A stretch of DNA of 32,178 nt, from the NCBI GenBank assembly GCA_945861325.1, contig CAMATY010000011.1, positions 1 to 32,178 on the forward strand. The letters are read 5' to 3'. This DNA comes from Ferrithrix thermotolerans DSM 19514. Lineage in GTDB: Bacteria > Actinomycetota > Acidimicrobiia > Acidimicrobiales > Ilumatobacteraceae. A program made the translations under genes and the position numbers. The notes under the pieces were generated by a model that was not told the DNA's origin, did no database searches, and saw only the letters and a list, made by a program, of their open reading frames with translations. Positions 6,744-30,470 of the stretch are shown piece by piece (within the stretch, counting starts at the first letter, position 1; each line of letters starts with the position of its first letter).

Positions 6744-7283
6744 TTAAAGCAAGTTCAAAACTAGGCGGGCGACAATGCCCATCACAGCGCCAATAATTGC
6801 GCCGACAAAAATATCGCTGGCATGATGAATTCGCACTGCGACTCGACTTAGCGCAACGACCGTCGCCATGCTGAACCAAAGCGCGATTACTGGCCCAGTT
6901 GACCAGCCAGTGAGTACAACCGCGGCGAAAAATGCCGAACTGGCGTGTCCGCTAGGAAAACTCGAAGTGCGTGGTTTACGAATTTTGAACCGTGCATCAC
7001 CTTTGACTGTTGGTCGCTGGCGTTTGAAGAAAGGTTTGATGCCTTGGTTGAGTAGCAAACTCTCAATACCCATCAGTGATGAAAGAATTAGTGCTTGACG
7101 CACTCGCCTTGAGTCAGCAAGTGCGCGGATGATGCCAACGATGTGCCAAAGCAGACCAAAATCACCAAGAGCCGTCGCGCAATTAAATAGCCAAATAGTT
7201 GGCTTGAAGTTGCGCGTTGGCTCAAGAAAACGGTCAACTCGCTGATCAAAAGCGTGGAACTTTGCGCGGCGTGATTCGTTCAT
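6744..7283 (-). CDS. PAP2-family phosphatase, membrane protein
   Basis: 179 aa. KPFFKRQRPT, SSFPSGHASSAFF and SRVAVRIHHASDIFVGAIIG match the three PAP2 motifs. Confidence 0.9.
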   Translation of the reverse strand: MNESRRAKFHAFDQRVDRFLEPTRNFKPTIWLFNCATALGDFGLLWHIVGIIRALADSRRVRQALILSSLMGIESLLLNQGIKPFFKRQRPTVKGDARFKIRKPRTSSFPSGHASSAFFAAVVLTGWSTGPVIALWFSMATVVALSRVAVRIHHASDIFVGAIIGAVMGIVARLVLNLL

Positions 7284-7292
7284 GAAATATCG

Positions 7293-8126
7293 CTAGTTTT
7301 TTTCGAGTGCTGGGTAGAGCACGGGTGCTTGAATTTGTGCTTGTGTTGGATCTCCGCCGAACTCTGGGCACCATTGTTTGAAAGCACAAAAATTGCACAG
7401 TCCTGAACGATGGGTCTCAAATTCTCCTGTTTGACATGACTCAGCAATTTGGTCAAAGGTTTTAATCGCGGCCGCGTCGCATGCAGCATTTGATTCATCT
7501 GTGACGTCAACTTCAATTGGGGTACTTGACTTTAGATACATCAGTCTAAGTTTTTTTGGTAACTCACCACGCACACGTAAACATAGTGATGCGTAAAGGT
7601 GCATGTTGTCCATTTTGTTTGCGCCGTATTTTGGATTGGGCACTTTGCCTGTTTTGTAATCGCTGATCACCAGATCGCCGTGTTCATCGTGTTCAAGGCG
7701 GTCGATGATGCCACCGAGTTTGAATTTTCCAAAGTCAGAGTCAAGACGCATTTCAAGACCTATGACTTTTGTGTTTCGAGGGTTTTCCATTCGGTAATAA
7801 CCATTGACGAGTTCTCGAGAGTCTTTGAAGAATGCTTCTCGATCTTCTTGGCTCAAGCCAAGCGCAACAAATCGAGCAGATGGTTCGTATTCTGCTTTAG
7901 CAAGTTCAAAATCTTCGCGCGCCGCATCTACTGTGCGCAGTTCAGGTTCGTGGGCAAGCAATAATTCGAGTACTCGGTGTACAAAGTTGCCTTTGACTAA
8001 ATGGATCTGTGGCGGCTCGGGCAGTTTTTCAATTGACGCAAAACGAAATTGCATTGGGCATGTGCGAAAACCACTGATGCGCGAAGGGGACAATGTCAAT
8101 GGAATTGGATAAACAGACTGTGACAC
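7293..8126 (-). CDS. RecB-family PD-(D/E)XK exonuclease with probable Fe-S cluster cysteines
   Basis: 277 aa. SPSRISGFRTCPMQFRF, KGNFVHRVLE, GGIIDRLEHDEHGDLVISDYKTGK and C-terminal CNFCAFKQWC; one N-terminal plus three C-terminal Cys as in Cas4/AddB-like nucleases. Confidence 0.88.
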   Translation of the reverse strand: MSQSVYPIPLTLSPSRISGFRTCPMQFRFASIEKLPEPPQIHLVKGNFVHRVLELLLAHEPELRTVDAAREDFELAKAEYEPSARFVALGLSQEDREAFFKDSRELVNGYYRMENPRNTKVIGLEMRLDSDFGKFKLGGIIDRLEHDEHGDLVISDYKTGKVPNPKYGANKMDNMHLYASLCLRVRGELPKKLRLMYLKSSTPIEVDVTDESNAACDAAAIKTFDQIAESCQTGEFETHRSGLCNFCAFKQWCPEFGGDPTQAQIQAPVLYPALEKN

Positions 8127-8145
8127 TAGTTGTTCAATCTACGCA

Positions 8146-9093
8146 CTATTCGTTTGTTGGTGTTGCGTTATCAGATGCGAGTTTGTCAACTTCGCCGATG
8201 AGTGAGGCGAGCCGGTCGGGTTGCTGCATTGGGCCAAAGTGTCCAACATCTGACCATTGGATGAACTTCGCGTTCTGAATCTCTTTGGCGATTAATTCGG
8301 ACCATGCAGAAGGTTGGTTCGGCGCAACAGCGCCGGCGACGACCCAAGTCGGAACTTGGAGCAGGTGAAGTTGATCCCAAGTTTGATGTGCGGCTCCAGT
8401 TTCGTATGTTCGTGCTTCATGCTCGGGAAGGCATTTGAGCACTACTGAACGCTGTTTAGTTTTTGTATCCTCGATGTCATTAAATCCGTACTCGACATAG
8501 GCACGAAGAGATTCGTTTTTGAACACGTTCATTGGCGGTTTTGAAGAATAATTTGCTAACGCTTCTTCTCGCGAAGCAAATGTTGTGCGACGGCGACGAG
8601 CACCTTCGACGAGTGGGCTTGGCACATGCAAATCTTTGGCTGCCTGACGAAATGTGGCTGGAAAAATAATAGGTTCATAAATAATCAGCGCTTTAAATAG
8701 TTCGGGTGCTATCAGCGCGGCCATAATTAAGGCCGCACCACCCATTGAATGCCCAACAGCGATTATTCGGCCGTGATCGCGAAGCGAACTGGCAACCGCA
8801 AGTGCGTCGTCACAATAGCCTTGCCACTCGACCTGCCAATCTGAGTCCAACTTTGAGTCGCCGAAGCCTCGATAGTCAAATGATGTGCAGTCGAATTTGT
8901 TTTTTAGAGAATTAACAACTGGATCAAAACATCGACCATGAAATCCTGTGGCATGAGACAATAAAACCTGGCGGTTGGCGCTGGACTTTGATGGGTAGCT
9001 ATAGACGCTGAGTTGTATCGAGTCCGAAGATTCGATGAAGGTTCGCTTCGGCATTTCAATATTCATAGTCTTGCATTGTGTCAGGTAGTTCAA
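8146..9093 (-). CDS. Alpha/beta hydrolase
   Basis: 315 aa. Nucleophile elbow AVGHSMGGAA, VLLSHATGFHGRCFDPV, C-terminal DVGHFGPMQQPDRLA. The real start may be an internal Met (MNIEMPKRTF). Confidence 0.9.
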   Translation of the reverse strand: MNYLTQCKTMNIEMPKRTFIESSDSIQLSVYSYPSKSSANRQVLLSHATGFHGRCFDPVVNSLKNKFDCTSFDYRGFGDSKLDSDWQVEWQGYCDDALAVASSLRDHGRIIAVGHSMGGAALIMAALIAPELFKALIIYEPIIFPATFRQAAKDLHVPSPLVEGARRRRTTFASREEALANYSSKPPMNVFKNESLRAYVEYGFNDIEDTKTKQRSVVLKCLPEHEARTYETGAAHQTWDQLHLLQVPTWVVAGAVAPNQPSAWSELIAKEIQNAKFIQWSDVGHFGPMQQPDRLASLIGEVDKLASDNATPTNE

Positions 9094-9106
9094 CTATGAT
9101 GTGCCA

Positions 9107-9373
9107 ATGGCTACAAAGCGCAAACCGAAAAAAACAACCACGAAGAAACCTGCTGCAAAGAAACCTGCTGCAAAGAAACCTGCTGCAAAGAAAACGCCTG
9201 CTAAAAAAGCAGTATCAGGTGGGTCAACTTTGAAAATCAAAGATCTTGTTGCGGTTGCCAAGCGAGTTGAAGAATCAAAGTCAAAAGCCAAGTCTCCAGC
9301 AACAAAAAAAGGCGATTTTGACCTTTTGGCGATGTTGATTAAATGGTTCAAAAAGTTAGTTAACCAAAAATAG
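9107..9373 (+). CDS. Small Lys/Ala/Pro-repeat histone H1-like protein
   Basis: ATG 9107 (alternative GTG 9101). MATKRKPKKTTTKKPAAKKPAAKKPAAKKTPAKKAVSGGSTLKIKDLVAVAKRVEESKSKAKSPATKKGDFDLLAMLIKWFKKLVNQK. Confidence 0.8.
   Translation: MATKRKPKKTTTKKPAAKKPAAKKPAAKKTPAKKAVSGGSTLKIKDLVAVAKRVEESKSKAKSPATKKGDFDLLAMLIKWFKKLVNQK
9143..9187 (+). repeat. Three perfect 15-bp tandem repeats encoding KKPAA
   Basis: aagaaacctgctgca repeated three times without mismatch at 9143-9157, 9158-9172 and 9173-9187, followed by partial aagaaa. Confidence 0.95.
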
Positions 9374-9414
9374 GTTCATCGCGGCGTTGCCCGTTATAGA
9401 TGTTGCATTGAACT

Positions 9415-9430
9415 GGTAGTACGAACTACC
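9415..9430 (+). promoter_or_regulatory. Hairpin-forming element just upstream of the acyl-CoA synthetase start; similar sequence upstream of the small H1-like gene
   Basis: GGTAGT-acga-ACTACC inverted repeat ending 2 nt before GTG 9433 and 8 nt before ATG 9439. The paralogous segment at 9084-9097 reads ggtagttcaactat. Confidence 0.5.
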
Positions 9431-9438
9431 GTGTGTCA

Positions 9439-11235
9439 ATGGCCACAAAATCAAAAAAAACACGCAAGAAAACATCAAAGAACCGCGCATCTAAAAAAGT
9501 AGCGAAGAAGACAGCCAAAAAATCCGCCAAGAAGACGGCCAAAAAGTCTGTCAAAAAAACTGTTAAAAAATCCGCGAAGAAGACTGCCAAAAAGACTGTA
9601 AAGAAGACAGCTATAAAATCTGCCAAGAAGAAAGTCGCTAGTAAAAAAGTAGTTCGTCCGCGAAACCCGTTTTTGGCGATCAAAGATATTGGTGGGATCG
9701 TCCGATACCACGCAAAACAACAGCCAGATGCGTTGTCACTTGTGCTGGGTGAGCGCACTCTTACATGGGCGCAATTGCTTTCGCGCTCGGCACAAGTTGC
9801 ACAGGGTTTAAAGCGAGCCGGAGTAAAAGCCCAGGATCGTGTTGCGTTTTTAGACAAAAATGGTATTGAGCATTTCGAAGTTTTCTACGGATGTGCGTTA
9901 CTCAACGCAGTCAGTGTTGATATCAACTGGCGACTAGCCGCGCCAGAAGTTTTATTTATTGTCAACGACTCGCGGGCCGAAGTGCTAATCGTCGGCCAGG
10001 AGTTTGTGCCAGTGCTTGATGCAATCATTGGCGAACTGACTCAGGTCAAAACAATCATTGTGATTGGTGGACACTCGAACCACGACGATTATGAGCGATG
10101 GGTCAATGCGCAATCAGCGACCGATCCAAAAGCGTCAACTAAGAGCAGCGATGTTGCGTTTCAGTTGTATTCAAGTGGCACCACTGGTCGGCCAAAAGGT
10201 GTGATGTTGACTAATGATAATTTTTTCGCACTTCTTCCTGCTGCACAAAAAATTTGGCACATGTCTGAGACAACGATAAATCTTGTGGCGATGCCATTGT
10301 TTCATATTGGTGGTGGTGGTTGGGCAACCGCAGGACAATATTGTGGCGCGCGCTCAATAATCATGCGCGATATTAATCCTGCAGAAATAGTTGCGTGGAT
10401 TGAGAAGTATCGGATCACTCACGCGTTCATGGTGCCTGCGCTATTGCAGTTTGCACTTGCAATGCCAAATATCGGCACAACAGATTTCTCGAGCCTTGAA
10501 CTAATTGCGTATGGCGCATCACCGATTTCTGAATCAGTCCTTGAAGGTGCGATCAACGCATTTAAGTGTCCGTTTATGCAGGTCTATGGGTTGACAGAAA
10601 CGACGGGAGTAGTGACGGTTCTTGGGCCAGAAGATCACGACTTGAGTTCAGCCAATAAGGGCCGCTTGCGTTCGTGCGGCAAACCATTTACGGGCATTGA
10701 GTTGCGAATCGTAGATTCGGACACGGCGAAAGATGTTCCGCTCGGAGAGGTTGGCGAAATTTGGATTCGGTCTCGCCAAGTTATGAAGGGCTATTGGAAT
10801 ATGCCTGAAGAAACTGCAAAGTCAATCGTTAATGGTCGGTGGTTCAGATCAGGTGATGCTGGATACTTCGACAAAGACGGATATGTGTACATCTTCGACC
10901 GTGTCAAAGACATGATTGTCTCGGGTGGCGAAAATGTTTACCCAGCAGAAGTCGAGAATGCGCTGATGGCTCATCCGGCGATTGCCGATGTTGCAGTTAT
11001 TGGCGTGCCTGATGAGAAGTGGGGAGAGGTGCCGATGGCACTTGTCGTGCGAAAACCGGACACGCAAGTTACCGAGAGCGAGATTCTCGCATTCGCACGT
11101 GAGCGTCTTGCTGGGTTCAAGACTCCGAAAACTGTTGGCTGGATCGATGCCCTGCCGCGTAATCCATCTGGCAAGATTCTTAAAAAAGATCTTCGTGAGC
11201 CATACTGGAAGGGTCACGCCCGTCGAGTTAACTAG
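9439..11235 (+). CDS. Long-chain acyl-CoA synthetase (AMP-binding, FadD-like) with N-terminal H1-like Lys-rich tail
   Basis: ~598 aa from ATG 9439 (GTG 9433 possible). Tail MATKSKKTRKKTSKNRASKKVAKKTAKKSAKKTAKKS...KKKVASKKVVRPR is followed in frame by IKDIGGIVRYHAKQQPDALSLVLGERTLTWAQL. AMP-binding motif YSSGTTGRPKGVMLT; VYGLTETTG; SGGENVYPAEVENAL; PRNPSGKILKKDLRE. Confidence 0.93.
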   Translation: MATKSKKTRKKTSKNRASKKVAKKTAKKSAKKTAKKSVKKTVKKSAKKTAKKTVKKTAIKSAKKKVASKKVVRPRNPFLAIKDIGGIVRYHAKQQPDALSLVLGERTLTWAQLLSRSAQVAQGLKRAGVKAQDRVAFLDKNGIEHFEVFYGCALLNAVSVDINWRLAAPEVLFIVNDSRAEVLIVGQEFVPVLDAIIGELTQVKTIIVIGGHSNHDDYERWVNAQSATDPKASTKSSDVAFQLYSSGTTGRPKGVMLTNDNFFALLPAAQKIWHMSETTINLVAMPLFHIGGGGWATAGQYCGARSIIMRDINPAEIVAWIEKYRITHAFMVPALLQFALAMPNIGTTDFSSLELIAYGASPISESVLEGAINAFKCPFMQVYGLTETTGVVTVLGPEDHDLSSANKGRLRSCGKPFTGIELRIVDSDTAKDVPLGEVGEIWIRSRQVMKGYWNMPEETAKSIVNGRWFRSGDAGYFDKDGYVYIFDRVKDMIVSGGENVYPAEVENALMAHPAIADVAVIGVPDEKWGEVPMALVVRKPDTQVTESEILAFARERLAGFKTPKTVGWIDALPRNPSGKILKKDLREPYWKGHARRVN

Positions 11236-11273
11236 CCCGATTTTCTGCCCGCCCAAAAATTGAAAGAAGTTTT

Positions 11274-12329
11274 ATGAAACTATCGATGATGATCAACTAT
11301 ATTTCTGATTTTCAAACATCAGCCAAGCAGGTTGTTGAACTTGAAAAGGTAGGTCTTGACATTGTGTGGATCGCTGAGGCATACAGTTATGACTCAATTT
11401 CGCAAGTGGGATATTTGGCTGCGGTTACCAATCGTGTACAGATCGGCACCGGGATCATCAATGTCTATTCACGAACTGCTGCATTAACTGCAATGACAGC
11501 AGCGGGTTGCGACTATGTCAGCAACGGTCGATTCATTTTGGGACTTGGCGCTTCCGGGCCACAAGTGATCGAAGGTTTTCACGGCGTGCCATACGAAAAA
11601 CCGATGCAACGAACAAAAGAATACATCGAAGTTTGTCGCGAAATTTGGAAACGCGAGAAGCCGCTTAATTATGATGGCAAGACTGTACAAATTCCGTTGC
11701 CTGCTGGTCAAGGCACTGGTTTAGGAAAGTCAATGAAGTTGATAAATCATCCGGTGCGTTCTGAGATTCCGGTGTGGTGGGCATCACTTAAAGATAAGAG
11801 CGTTGAAGCGACCGCAGAAATGGCTGATGGTTGGATGCCAATTTTCTTTTTGCCCGAGAAGTTTCAAAATGTCTGGGGTAAGTCGCTAAAAGCCGGTCAG
11901 GCAAAGCGTGATGCATCCATGAAGCCGCTTGACATATCGGCGGGGGGAATGTTGCATATTGACGAGTCGCTGACACCACAAAAACAAAATGAAATTTTAG
12001 ATTTCGCACGACCAAGTTATGCGCTGTATGTCGGTGGCATGGGCGCGCGTGGTAAAAACTTCTACAACGATATTTGTCGCGACTATGGATACGAAAAAGA
12101 GGCCGTTGAAATTCAAGATTTATATCTTGACGGCAAAAAGAAAGAAGCCGCTGCGCTGATTCCAAGTGACTGGCTGCAACTATCAAACCTCGTTGGCCCG
12201 AAGAGTTTCATCAAAGAACGTCTCGGGGCATTTAAAGAAGCTGGTGTAACTGTGTTGCAGGTAAACCCAGTTGGCCCTGACCCAGTGCGTGAAGTTGAAG
12301 TTCTCCGCGGAATTATTGACGACGTGTGA
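11274..12329 (+). CDS. LLM-class F420-dependent oxidoreductase
   Basis: 351 aa. VELEKVGLDIVWIAEAYSYDSISQVGYLAAVTNRVQIGTGIINVYSRTAALTAMTAAGCDYVSNGRFILGLGASGPQVIEGFHGVPYEKP. Confidence 0.9.
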   Translation: MKLSMMINYISDFQTSAKQVVELEKVGLDIVWIAEAYSYDSISQVGYLAAVTNRVQIGTGIINVYSRTAALTAMTAAGCDYVSNGRFILGLGASGPQVIEGFHGVPYEKPMQRTKEYIEVCREIWKREKPLNYDGKTVQIPLPAGQGTGLGKSMKLINHPVRSEIPVWWASLKDKSVEATAEMADGWMPIFFLPEKFQNVWGKSLKAGQAKRDASMKPLDISAGGMLHIDESLTPQKQNEILDFARPSYALYVGGMGARGKNFYNDICRDYGYEKEAVEIQDLYLDGKKKEAAALIPSDWLQLSNLVGPKSFIKERLGAFKEAGVTVLQVNPVGPDPVREVEVLRGIIDDV

Positions 12330-13548
12330 TTTCTTCGCTTAGGTTTTTTCGAACCGTGCGAGTCGCAAACAAATAAATAAGCGAAGCACAAACAGCAAGC
12401 AATGCAAACACGGCAATCGTTCCGCGCGCGCCAAAGTATTCAGAGACAACTCCTGCGAGCAAACTGCTGAGTCCAAGTGAAAGAGTAATTAATGCAAAGT
12501 CGCCGGCCAACACGCGTCCGCGCATCTCATCTGGGCAACGCACTTGTAATCCATACGTTGAAAGCGTCCATTGTGCGCCGCCACCCAAGTGTGCAAAACA
12601 GATGCATACGCAGGCGATTATAAAAAATGGTGAGGCGGCGGCGGCGAGATATCCGCCAGCAAAGCCCAGACCAGCGATGCCACACACGAGGATCACTTTC
12701 GAGAGGTCATTTTTGACGAACCGTGCGGCCAATAGCGGCCCAAGTGCGCTGCCCAAGCCGCGCAGTCCGAGCATGATTCCGCGACCCGCGTCGCCACGAT
12801 TGAACGAGTCAGCGGCAAAAACTGCTAGTTGACTGACGACTCCAGCGCCGACGGCAAATGTCATCTTTGACATCAATAGCGACATGATTGCTGGATCAGA
12901 TTTTGCGAGGTGTAGTGCTTCGTGCATATCTGAAATCGGACGGATTTTTTTACTGTGATTTGCCGCACGAGCTTCTTGCATAGGGCGATTGACGAGAGCG
13001 ATTAACCCAGCAGCGACAACAAAAGTTGCAATGTCGGCGATGAATGCTGCCTGCCGACCGAAAACTTGTGAGAAGATTCCGCCGATACCAGCGCCGACTG
13101 CAAGCATTACGCCCCAACTACTGCCAAATAGTGCATTGGCTTGCCGTAGTTCGTCTGGATCGCGAGCCAAGTTCGGAATCGCTGCTTCAAGTGCTGGTCT
13201 TACGAATGAGGCAAGTGCTGCGATCATGCTCTGGGCGACAAAAGCAATCCACACACGCGAGTCGCCAATAAATAAGAATCCACATGCAGCAATTGCTTGC
13301 AGAATTGAAACAACGATTAAAACTTTACGACGATCATGTTTGTCAGCAACTGGTCCGCCGATCGGTGAAGCCAAAAATGATGGTAGTGAAAATGCTACTA
13401 ATAGTAGAGAGACCAAAAATTTTGAACCAGTTATGTCTTGAACCAAGCCTGCTAATGCAACGAATGTAAACCAATCGCCGATGAACGAAAGATTTTGGGC
13501 AACAAACAGTAGACGTAATTCTCTATTAACTCTTAAAACTTTAAACAA
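12313..13548 (-). CDS. MFS transporter
   Basis: 411 aa, many hydrophobic segments; FIGDWFTFVALAGLVQDITGSKFLVSLLLVAFSLPSFLASPIGGPVADKHDRRKVLI (MFS motif A-like). Confidence 0.88.
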   Translation of the reverse strand: MFKVLRVNRELRLLFVAQNLSFIGDWFTFVALAGLVQDITGSKFLVSLLLVAFSLPSFLASPIGGPVADKHDRRKVLIVVSILQAIAACGFLFIGDSRVWIAFVAQSMIAALASFVRPALEAAIPNLARDPDELRQANALFGSSWGVMLAVGAGIGGIFSQVFGRQAAFIADIATFVVAAGLIALVNRPMQEARAANHSKKIRPISDMHEALHLAKSDPAIMSLLMSKMTFAVGAGVVSQLAVFAADSFNRGDAGRGIMLGLRGLGSALGPLLAARFVKNDLSKVILVCGIAGLGFAGGYLAAAASPFFIIACVCICFAHLGGGAQWTLSTYGLQVRCPDEMRGRVLAGDFALITLSLGLSSLLAGVVSEYFGARGTIAVFALLAVCASLIYLFATRTVRKNLSEEITRRQ

Positions 13549-29435: not shown

Positions 29436-30470
29436 TTGAATGGGTGTGTGGTTAAACCGTTTACTCATGTTGTGGTTGACGGTTCGAATCTAGCGACCGA
29501 AGGTCGAACTGAACCAAGCCTGAAGCAACTTAACGAGGCAGTACTTTCGTTCATGAAAGAGTTTCCAGGCACAAAAATTACAGTCGTGGTTGATGCAACA
29601 TTCGGTCATCGGGTTGATCGAAAAGAACGAGCAGAATTTGATGCCGCAATTAACAACAATGAACTCGTTGCACCACCAGCTGGTGCAGTTGGTCGTGGTG
29701 ATGGATTTGTTCTAACGATCGCTGACAAAGTAAAGGCCAGCGTGTTGTCAAATGATAGTTATCAAGAATTTCACGACCAATACAAGTGGCTATTTGATGA
29801 AGGTCGACTTATTGGTGGCAAGCCTGTGCCAAATGTTGGTTGGGTATTTATCCAACGACTTCCGGTGCGCAAACAATCTGGTCGAGAAAGTGCTGCAACT
29901 GTGCGGCGGGCAAAGGCTGTTCGGGCGCCGGCGCGTCCGATGCCGGTACCGAAAAGTCCACCTCCAGCAGTAAGAGCTGCAGCAAACTCACCAAAGCCAG
30001 TCGCGCAAAGCAGTAAGCCGACTGCTAATTCAAAGCCGACTCCAAAACTAAACGAGATCACTGCATTTCTAAATTTTGTCGAGAAAAATCCAGTGGGCAC
30101 AAAACTTAAAGGCATCGTTGAGAGTTATGCATCTCATGGTGTTTATGTGAAAGTTGGCGAAGTGTTGGGCTATCTGCCGATGCGACTGATGGCCAACCCG
30201 GTTCCGCGAAGCGCTCGCGAACATGTCAAACTCGGGACTTCATTAAATCTTGTGATTGTTGGCTACACACCGTCAAGAAGAAGTGTTGAACTTGCCGTGT
30301 TTGGCGTAGAGCCAGTAACTACTCAGCGAACTGTTGCTCGCGCACCGACTCAGCGAACTGTTGGTCCGATTCGAACGGCGACAACTCGAATTGCACAAAT
30401 TAAAAAAGCCAAGCGTCGGCGCCAAAAGCCAAAAGCAGTCCAGAAGAAAGCGCCACACAAAAAACGCTAA
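29436..30470 (+). CDS. Zc3h12a/NYN-like ribonuclease domain fused to S1 RNA-binding domain and basic tail
   Basis: THVVVDGSNLATEGRTEPSLKQLNEAVLSFMKEFPGTKITVVVDATFGHRV...VLSNDSYQEFHDQYKWL (PIN/NYN-like acidic motifs); S1-like TKLKGIVESYASHGVYVKVGEVLGYLPMRLM; C-terminal KKAKRRRQKPKAVQKKAPHKKR. The start may be GTG 29448 rather than TTG 29436. Confidence 0.8.
   Translation: MNGCVVKPFTHVVVDGSNLATEGRTEPSLKQLNEAVLSFMKEFPGTKITVVVDATFGHRVDRKERAEFDAAINNNELVAPPAGAVGRGDGFVLTIADKVKASVLSNDSYQEFHDQYKWLFDEGRLIGGKPVPNVGWVFIQRLPVRKQSGRESAATVRRAKAVRAPARPMPVPKSPPPAVRAAANSPKPVAQSSKPTANSKPTPKLNEITAFLNFVEKNPVGTKLKGIVESYASHGVYVKVGEVLGYLPMRLMANPVPRSAREHVKLGTSLNLVIVGYTPSRRSVELAVFGVEPVTTQRTVARAPTQRTVGPIRTATTRIAQIKKAKRRRQKPKAVQKKAPHKKR
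30321..30363 (+). repeat. 16-bp direct repeat (two copies, 27-nt period) in the RNase/S1 C-terminal region
   Basis: ACTCAGCGAACTGTTG at 30321-30336 and 30348-30363, encoding TQRTV twice. Confidence 0.9.

Follow-up and report, generated by a model that had tools for sequence, protein, structure and literature searches.

Probable origin of an H1-like small gene from a partial tandem duplication at the 5' end of a lysine-tailed acyl-CoA synthetase gene

The window, that is, the whole stretch of 32,178 nucleotides analyzed here, belongs to what we take to be a freshwater Ilumatobacteraceae-like MAG. A small H1-like gene and an acyl-CoA synthetase gene lie in it side by side, between an alpha/beta-hydrolase gene and a gene for an F420-dependent oxidoreductase, and their features are listed in Table 1.

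Table 1. Features of the hydrolase to oxidoreductase region, in window positions.
Feature	Position	Strand	Details
Divergent alpha/beta-hydrolase gene	8146..9066	-	Pfam Abhydrolase_6, E 4.7e-18; marks the putative ancestral single-promoter position
Promoter copy 1 (predicted)	9071..9100	+	-35 TTGCAT 9071-9076, 18-nt spacer, -10 TATGAT 9095-9100, 6 nt to ATG
H1-like gene	9107..9373	+	88 aa, net charge +23; lysine-rich half, then two predicted helices
Post-tail segment LKIKDLVAVAK	9230..9262	+	Probable remnant of the synthetase core start; in register with 9673-9705
C-terminal amphipathic helix of the H1-like protein (predicted)	9314..9361	+	Residues 70-85; AlphaFold2 pLDDT ~75-79
Promoter copy 2 (predicted)	9403..9432	+	-35 TTGCAT 9403-9408, 18-nt spacer, -10 TACCGT 9427-9432, 6 nt to ATG
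Acyl-CoA synthetase gene	9439..11235	+	598 aa; AMP-binding E 2.7e-86, AMP-binding_C
N-terminal lysine-rich tail of the synthetase	9439..9660	+	74 aa, net charge +35; in g1 and g9, not in g5 or the other genera examined
Synthetase core start, LAIKDIGGIVR	9673..9705	+	Counterpart of 9230-9262
F420-dependent oxidoreductase gene, downstream, co-oriented	11274..12329	+	NCBIfam TIGR03559, 451 bits (cut-off 335); outside the duplication

Residues 84-596 of the synthetase matched the PRK06187 subfamily (NF004837; NCBIfam PRK06187.1) with 563.8 bits against a cut-off of 476, and by this classification its core is that of an ordinary fatty acyl-CoA ligase. FadD5/FadD13-type fatty acyl-CoA ligases (PDB 8r2q, 3r44) have the same core domains and are among its nearest solved sequence relatives. 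An earlier note on this DNA had described a lysine-rich tail on the enzyme; the tail is present, and its position is N-terminal. Across the genus of the window (g1) and its sister genus (g9) the tail has 45-87 aa and 40-54% Lys, and its charge has been maintained (+23 to +44) while its sequence has drifted, which suggests an electrostatic role. A literature search turned up no publication combining a lysine-rich, H1-like tail and an acyl-CoA synthetase.

The H1-like gene was found intact in seven genomes, with products of 83-119 aa, and is under purifying selection (dN/dS of the C-terminal part 0.16-0.44 in the seven genomes). AlphaFold2 run with seven sequences gave a model of low overall confidence (mean pLDDT 61), in which the lysine-rich half was unstructured and helices stood at residues 44-58 and, better supported, 70-85. 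The hydrophobic moment of the C-terminal helix lay in the 95th-99th percentile of this genome across homologues. Pfam and PDB relatives of the C-terminal part were not found, and the last ~30 residues had no counterpart in the synthetase; when the C-terminal part was aligned directly and locally with the whole synthetase, only the lysine tail was matched, mostly no better than other proteins, and this comparison was set aside. Low-complexity lysine-rich repeats are also typical of the Histone H1-like HC2 family (PF07382); the score for this family was 23.2 bits against a gathering cut-off of 40, the resemblance being compositional only.

Both starts have one layout in common, namely TTGCAT, exactly 18 nt, TAnnnT, 6 nt and ATG. 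The strings on which the similarity had originally been noticed were located at the positions given for them (GGTAGT at 9084-9089 with ATG at 9107, and GGTAGT at 9415-9420 with ATG at 9439), and the similarity is real, its extent having to be corrected, since it begins further 5' than claimed, at TTGCATTG (9071 and 9403). The 40-nt leaders alone gave a local alignment score of 13, compared with a mean of 6.3 and a maximum of 12 in 2000 dinucleotide shuffles. As background for start regions, 432 kb (25%) of the same genome (G000) with 462 other candidate ATG starts was used; the 50-nt pair scored 14, the other starts peaked at 12 and 13 against the two leaders, and among random start pairs 0.085% attained a score of 14. 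The two start regions are therefore homologous beyond chance, as in a tandem duplicate pair. A scoring matrix derived from nine one-gene relatives, each contributing its only start region, assigned 27.6 bits to start 1, 9.0 bits to start 2 and -11.3 bits to the next best of the 462, and start 1 was the top match across both strands of the 432 kb. Because these scores far exceed all 462 others, both start regions most likely descend from one ancestral synthetase promoter. Start 1 fits the ancestral single synthetase start better than start 2, the present start of the synthetase, does, and by adjoining the hydrolase it is the positional orthologue of that start. In clade B the start regions were more diverged by matrix scoring, most of all before the synthetase.

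A TAnnnT hexamer about 12 nt upstream of the start codon is the signature of leaderless genes in Actinobacteria (PMC3160421). TATGAT and TACCGT each begin 12 nt before their ATG, which agrees with this sequence definition, and in the 432 kb TAnnnT was counted 24, 24, 13 and 15 times at the distances of 6-9 nt before ATG, where most other distances had about 4. Since its placement matches the leaderless signature and this distance is enriched genome-wide, the shared 'leader' is most probably a promoter of leaderless type and not an mRNA leader, and the shared translational control that had been proposed would rather reflect the copying of a predicted leaderless promoter. A doubled GTG/ATG start had also been proposed: an in-frame GTG does stand two codons before each ATG in the window, but it lies behind the -10 hexamer and ahead of the point at which transcription is predicted to begin, which makes a doubled start unlikely. 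The GTG is not conserved, as G020 has ATG-TCA-ATG before the synthetase and both G020 and G024 are without GTG before the H1-like ATG. Rfam and tRNA scans of the window gave no matches. Leaderless starts seem to be common in this genome, TAnnnT being 3-6 fold enriched 6-9 nt before ATG over the 432 kb (L189-L208 plus the window).

The comparison with relatives covered the synthetase and its flanking regions in 62 genomes. Every g1 and g9 synthetase with a visible N-terminus carries the lysine-rich tail, which was not present in 17 of 17 g5 genomes, nor in the other genera of the family that were examined; the core tree unites g1 and g9 (support 92), consistent with a single gain of the tail. 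The hydrolase adjoins in all g1 loci that extend far enough. Between hydrolase and synthetase, the H1-like gene was found in seven g1 genomes (G000, G020, G024, G028, G006, G025 and G004), whereas the tailed synthetase directly adjoins the hydrolase in nine further g1 genomes whose locus could be read, and all tailed g9 loci are likewise without the H1-like gene. A profile of the H1-like C-terminal part, run on 222 genomes of the family, found nothing beyond the seven loci apart from one weak match in G124 (E 0.002), which was rejected as unrelated on inspection. The seven two-gene genomes form one clade on the hydrolase protein tree (support 96/86) and on a DNA tree of the core plus the downstream F420-dependent oxidoreductase flank (support 97/98), with G026, which has the tailed enzyme alone, as sister. 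A quick tree of the core protein, which evolves slowly, conflicts with this by nesting G026 within the clade (support 81), and would require loss of the H1-like gene there. Because the tail occurs at all visible g1 and g9 N-termini and the H1-like gene in one derived clade only, the tail on the synthetase is, judged from this distribution, older than the H1-like gene, an order on which the hydrolase tree and the DNA tree agree.

Along the same region, identity to G028 rises abruptly near window position 9656, being 71% over 7001-8960 and 87% over 9656-13000, and the group of G000 was placed differently by the hydrolase tree and the downstream tree; a recombination breakpoint at the border of tail and core (9656) is likely for these reasons.

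The segments behind the two lysine-rich stretches bear on the question of whether the duplication took in coding sequence as well as the promoter. LKIKDLVAVAK of the H1-like gene and LAIKDIGGIVR of the synthetase are identical at 19 of 27 nt, a value reached by 0 of 60000 random codon windows, the register having been picked by eye. When all offsets competed and pooled profiles of both families were used, p was 0.028 and the best offset fell exactly at the post-tail junction, where a KI-x-D-[LV] motif is common to the H1-like protein and the synthetase; position-free matching of single pairs at the junction was mostly not significant. The start of the H1-like protein, MATKRKPKK, is closer to the synthetase starts of g9 (MATKRRKPTKKK) and G026 (MATKRRKSSKK) than to that of the window's own synthetase (MATKSKKTRKK). 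The lysine-rich coding parts themselves were rejected as evidence of homology, as the H1-like gene scored 20 with the synthetase tail and 18, 22 and 23 with other, unrelated lysine-rich genes of the genome. We infer, with moderate support, that promoter, tail and first core codons were copied together.

The H1-like gene thus probably arose as a truncated copy when the 5' end of the synthetase gene was duplicated in tandem. In the ancestor of the genus, a single gene would have stood beside the divergent hydrolase, a lysine-tailed acyl-CoA synthetase under a sigma70-like leaderless promoter (TTGCAT-18-TAnnnT-6-ATG). In one sub-clade, a head-to-tail duplication would have taken in the promoter, the tail and probably about the first ten codons of the core; the copy on the hydrolase side would have kept its promoter where it originally lay, shed the enzyme and turned into a protein of 83-119 aa, and the enzyme would have remained behind the second promoter copy. 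The amphipathic helix at the C-terminus of the small protein would be new, or diverged beyond tracing.

That the tandem duplication included the promoter agrees with the earlier note, in which, however, an ancestral H1-like gene was duplicated and its downstream copy fused to an untailed synthetase. The promoter similarity would fit that order too, and untailed relatives do exist in g5 and other genera; yet the relatives with one gene at the locus, which comprise every tailed g9 locus and nine g1 loci that could be read, show a tailed synthetase and no H1-like gene, and the two-gene loci are a single derived clade among them, so that the H1-like gene would have to have been lost independently many times. 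We consider this order very improbable, and the proposed capture of a nucleoid-protein tail by a metabolic enzyme has to be reversed in direction, the H1-like gene at this locus not being the donor of the tail.

An unlikely, though less remote, course of events is a duplication of the promoter alone, which then captured an unrelated lysine-rich ORF from elsewhere in the genome. It would account for the ~30 C-terminal residues without a source, and the lysine-rich part of the H1-like protein does match the tail of a TatB-like gene and a small lysine-rich ORF as well as it matches the synthetase tail. Against it stand the KIKDL junction in register, a start (MATKRKP) like the ancestral synthetase starts, and a search of 222 family genomes in which no donor gene with the H1-like C-terminal part was found. 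Least probable of all is convergence, by which the starts would be alike merely as leaderless promoters followed by ATG-GCx-ACx-AAR codons: AACTAnnnT-6-ATG is indeed a common start signal in this genome, but TTGCATTG and GGTAGT are also common to both starts at near-equal spacing and none of the 462 other starts comes close.

If the truncated duplicate is accepted, the locus would represent a traceable birth of a bacterial small gene, in which promoter and disordered tail were copied from an enzyme gene, the enzyme was lost and a helix absent from the enzyme is now present, with the single-gene state still preserved in close relatives. Birth of small genes by partial tandem duplication is known; a lysine-tailed acyl-CoA synthetase as the source is the unusual part. 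It would also mean that a free H1-like gene can arise from a lysine-rich tail that was there before it, which corrects the direction of the supposed capture.

The conservation of the tail through two genera at 40-54% Lys, despite sequence drift, raises the question of where in the cell the enzyme is located. In both proteins the disordered polycationic tail may serve to hold the protein on a polyanion, and the small protein would then bind where the synthetase binds, without carrying an enzyme. Among actinobacterial proteins, Ku and HupB need their lysine repeats for interaction with DNA, and such repeats act in TopA as well (PMC7398561). These low-complexity, H1-resembling repeats are like the synthetase tail; they are C-terminal tails on DNA-binding proteins, whereas the tail here is N-terminal on a metabolic enzyme whose DNA binding is putative. 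From such repeats the tailed proteins may be nucleoid-associated, and nucleoid DNA is the polyanion that we tentatively favour. An anionic membrane is a less likely candidate. FadD13 adheres to membranes via a positive patch (PMC8253482), which consists of surface arginines of a folded domain, in contrast to the separate lysine-rich N-terminal tail of 45-87 aa found here. In the Rhodococcus lipid-droplet protein MLDS, lysine repeats bind DNA (PMC5504291), and a lysine-rich stretch of PAKKA type is joined to a lipid-surface part, comparable to the TPAKKA and amphipathic helix of the H1-like protein; the order of the parts is reversed, and the likeness is one without demonstrated sequence homology. 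It is doubtful, though conceivable, that the H1-like tail tethers the enzyme to the nucleoid or to some other polyanion, and that the enzyme-free paralogue, with tail and amphipathic helix, is its competitor on the same surface or forms a bridge there between membrane and DNA. We do not favour a PhaF-like role at granules, since a PHA synthase was not found in the genus: PhaC_N had no match in 29 genomes, most of them incomplete. In the search for a wax-ester synthase (WS/DGAT), the control genomes also gave no match.

Other lysine-rich genes were observed in the same genome. At a second site of this kind, a small lysine-rich ORF (L190:10333-10656) directly precedes the gene of a lysine-rich protein, there with long KKKLEL repeats (L190:10703-11899), and neither product had a Pfam match. 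An open frame on the minus strand of L199, at 4901, encodes a TatB-like protein with a lysine-rich C-terminal tail. In the window itself, 29436-30470 encodes a protein with an NYN ribonuclease domain, a weak S1-like match and a basic C-terminal tail.
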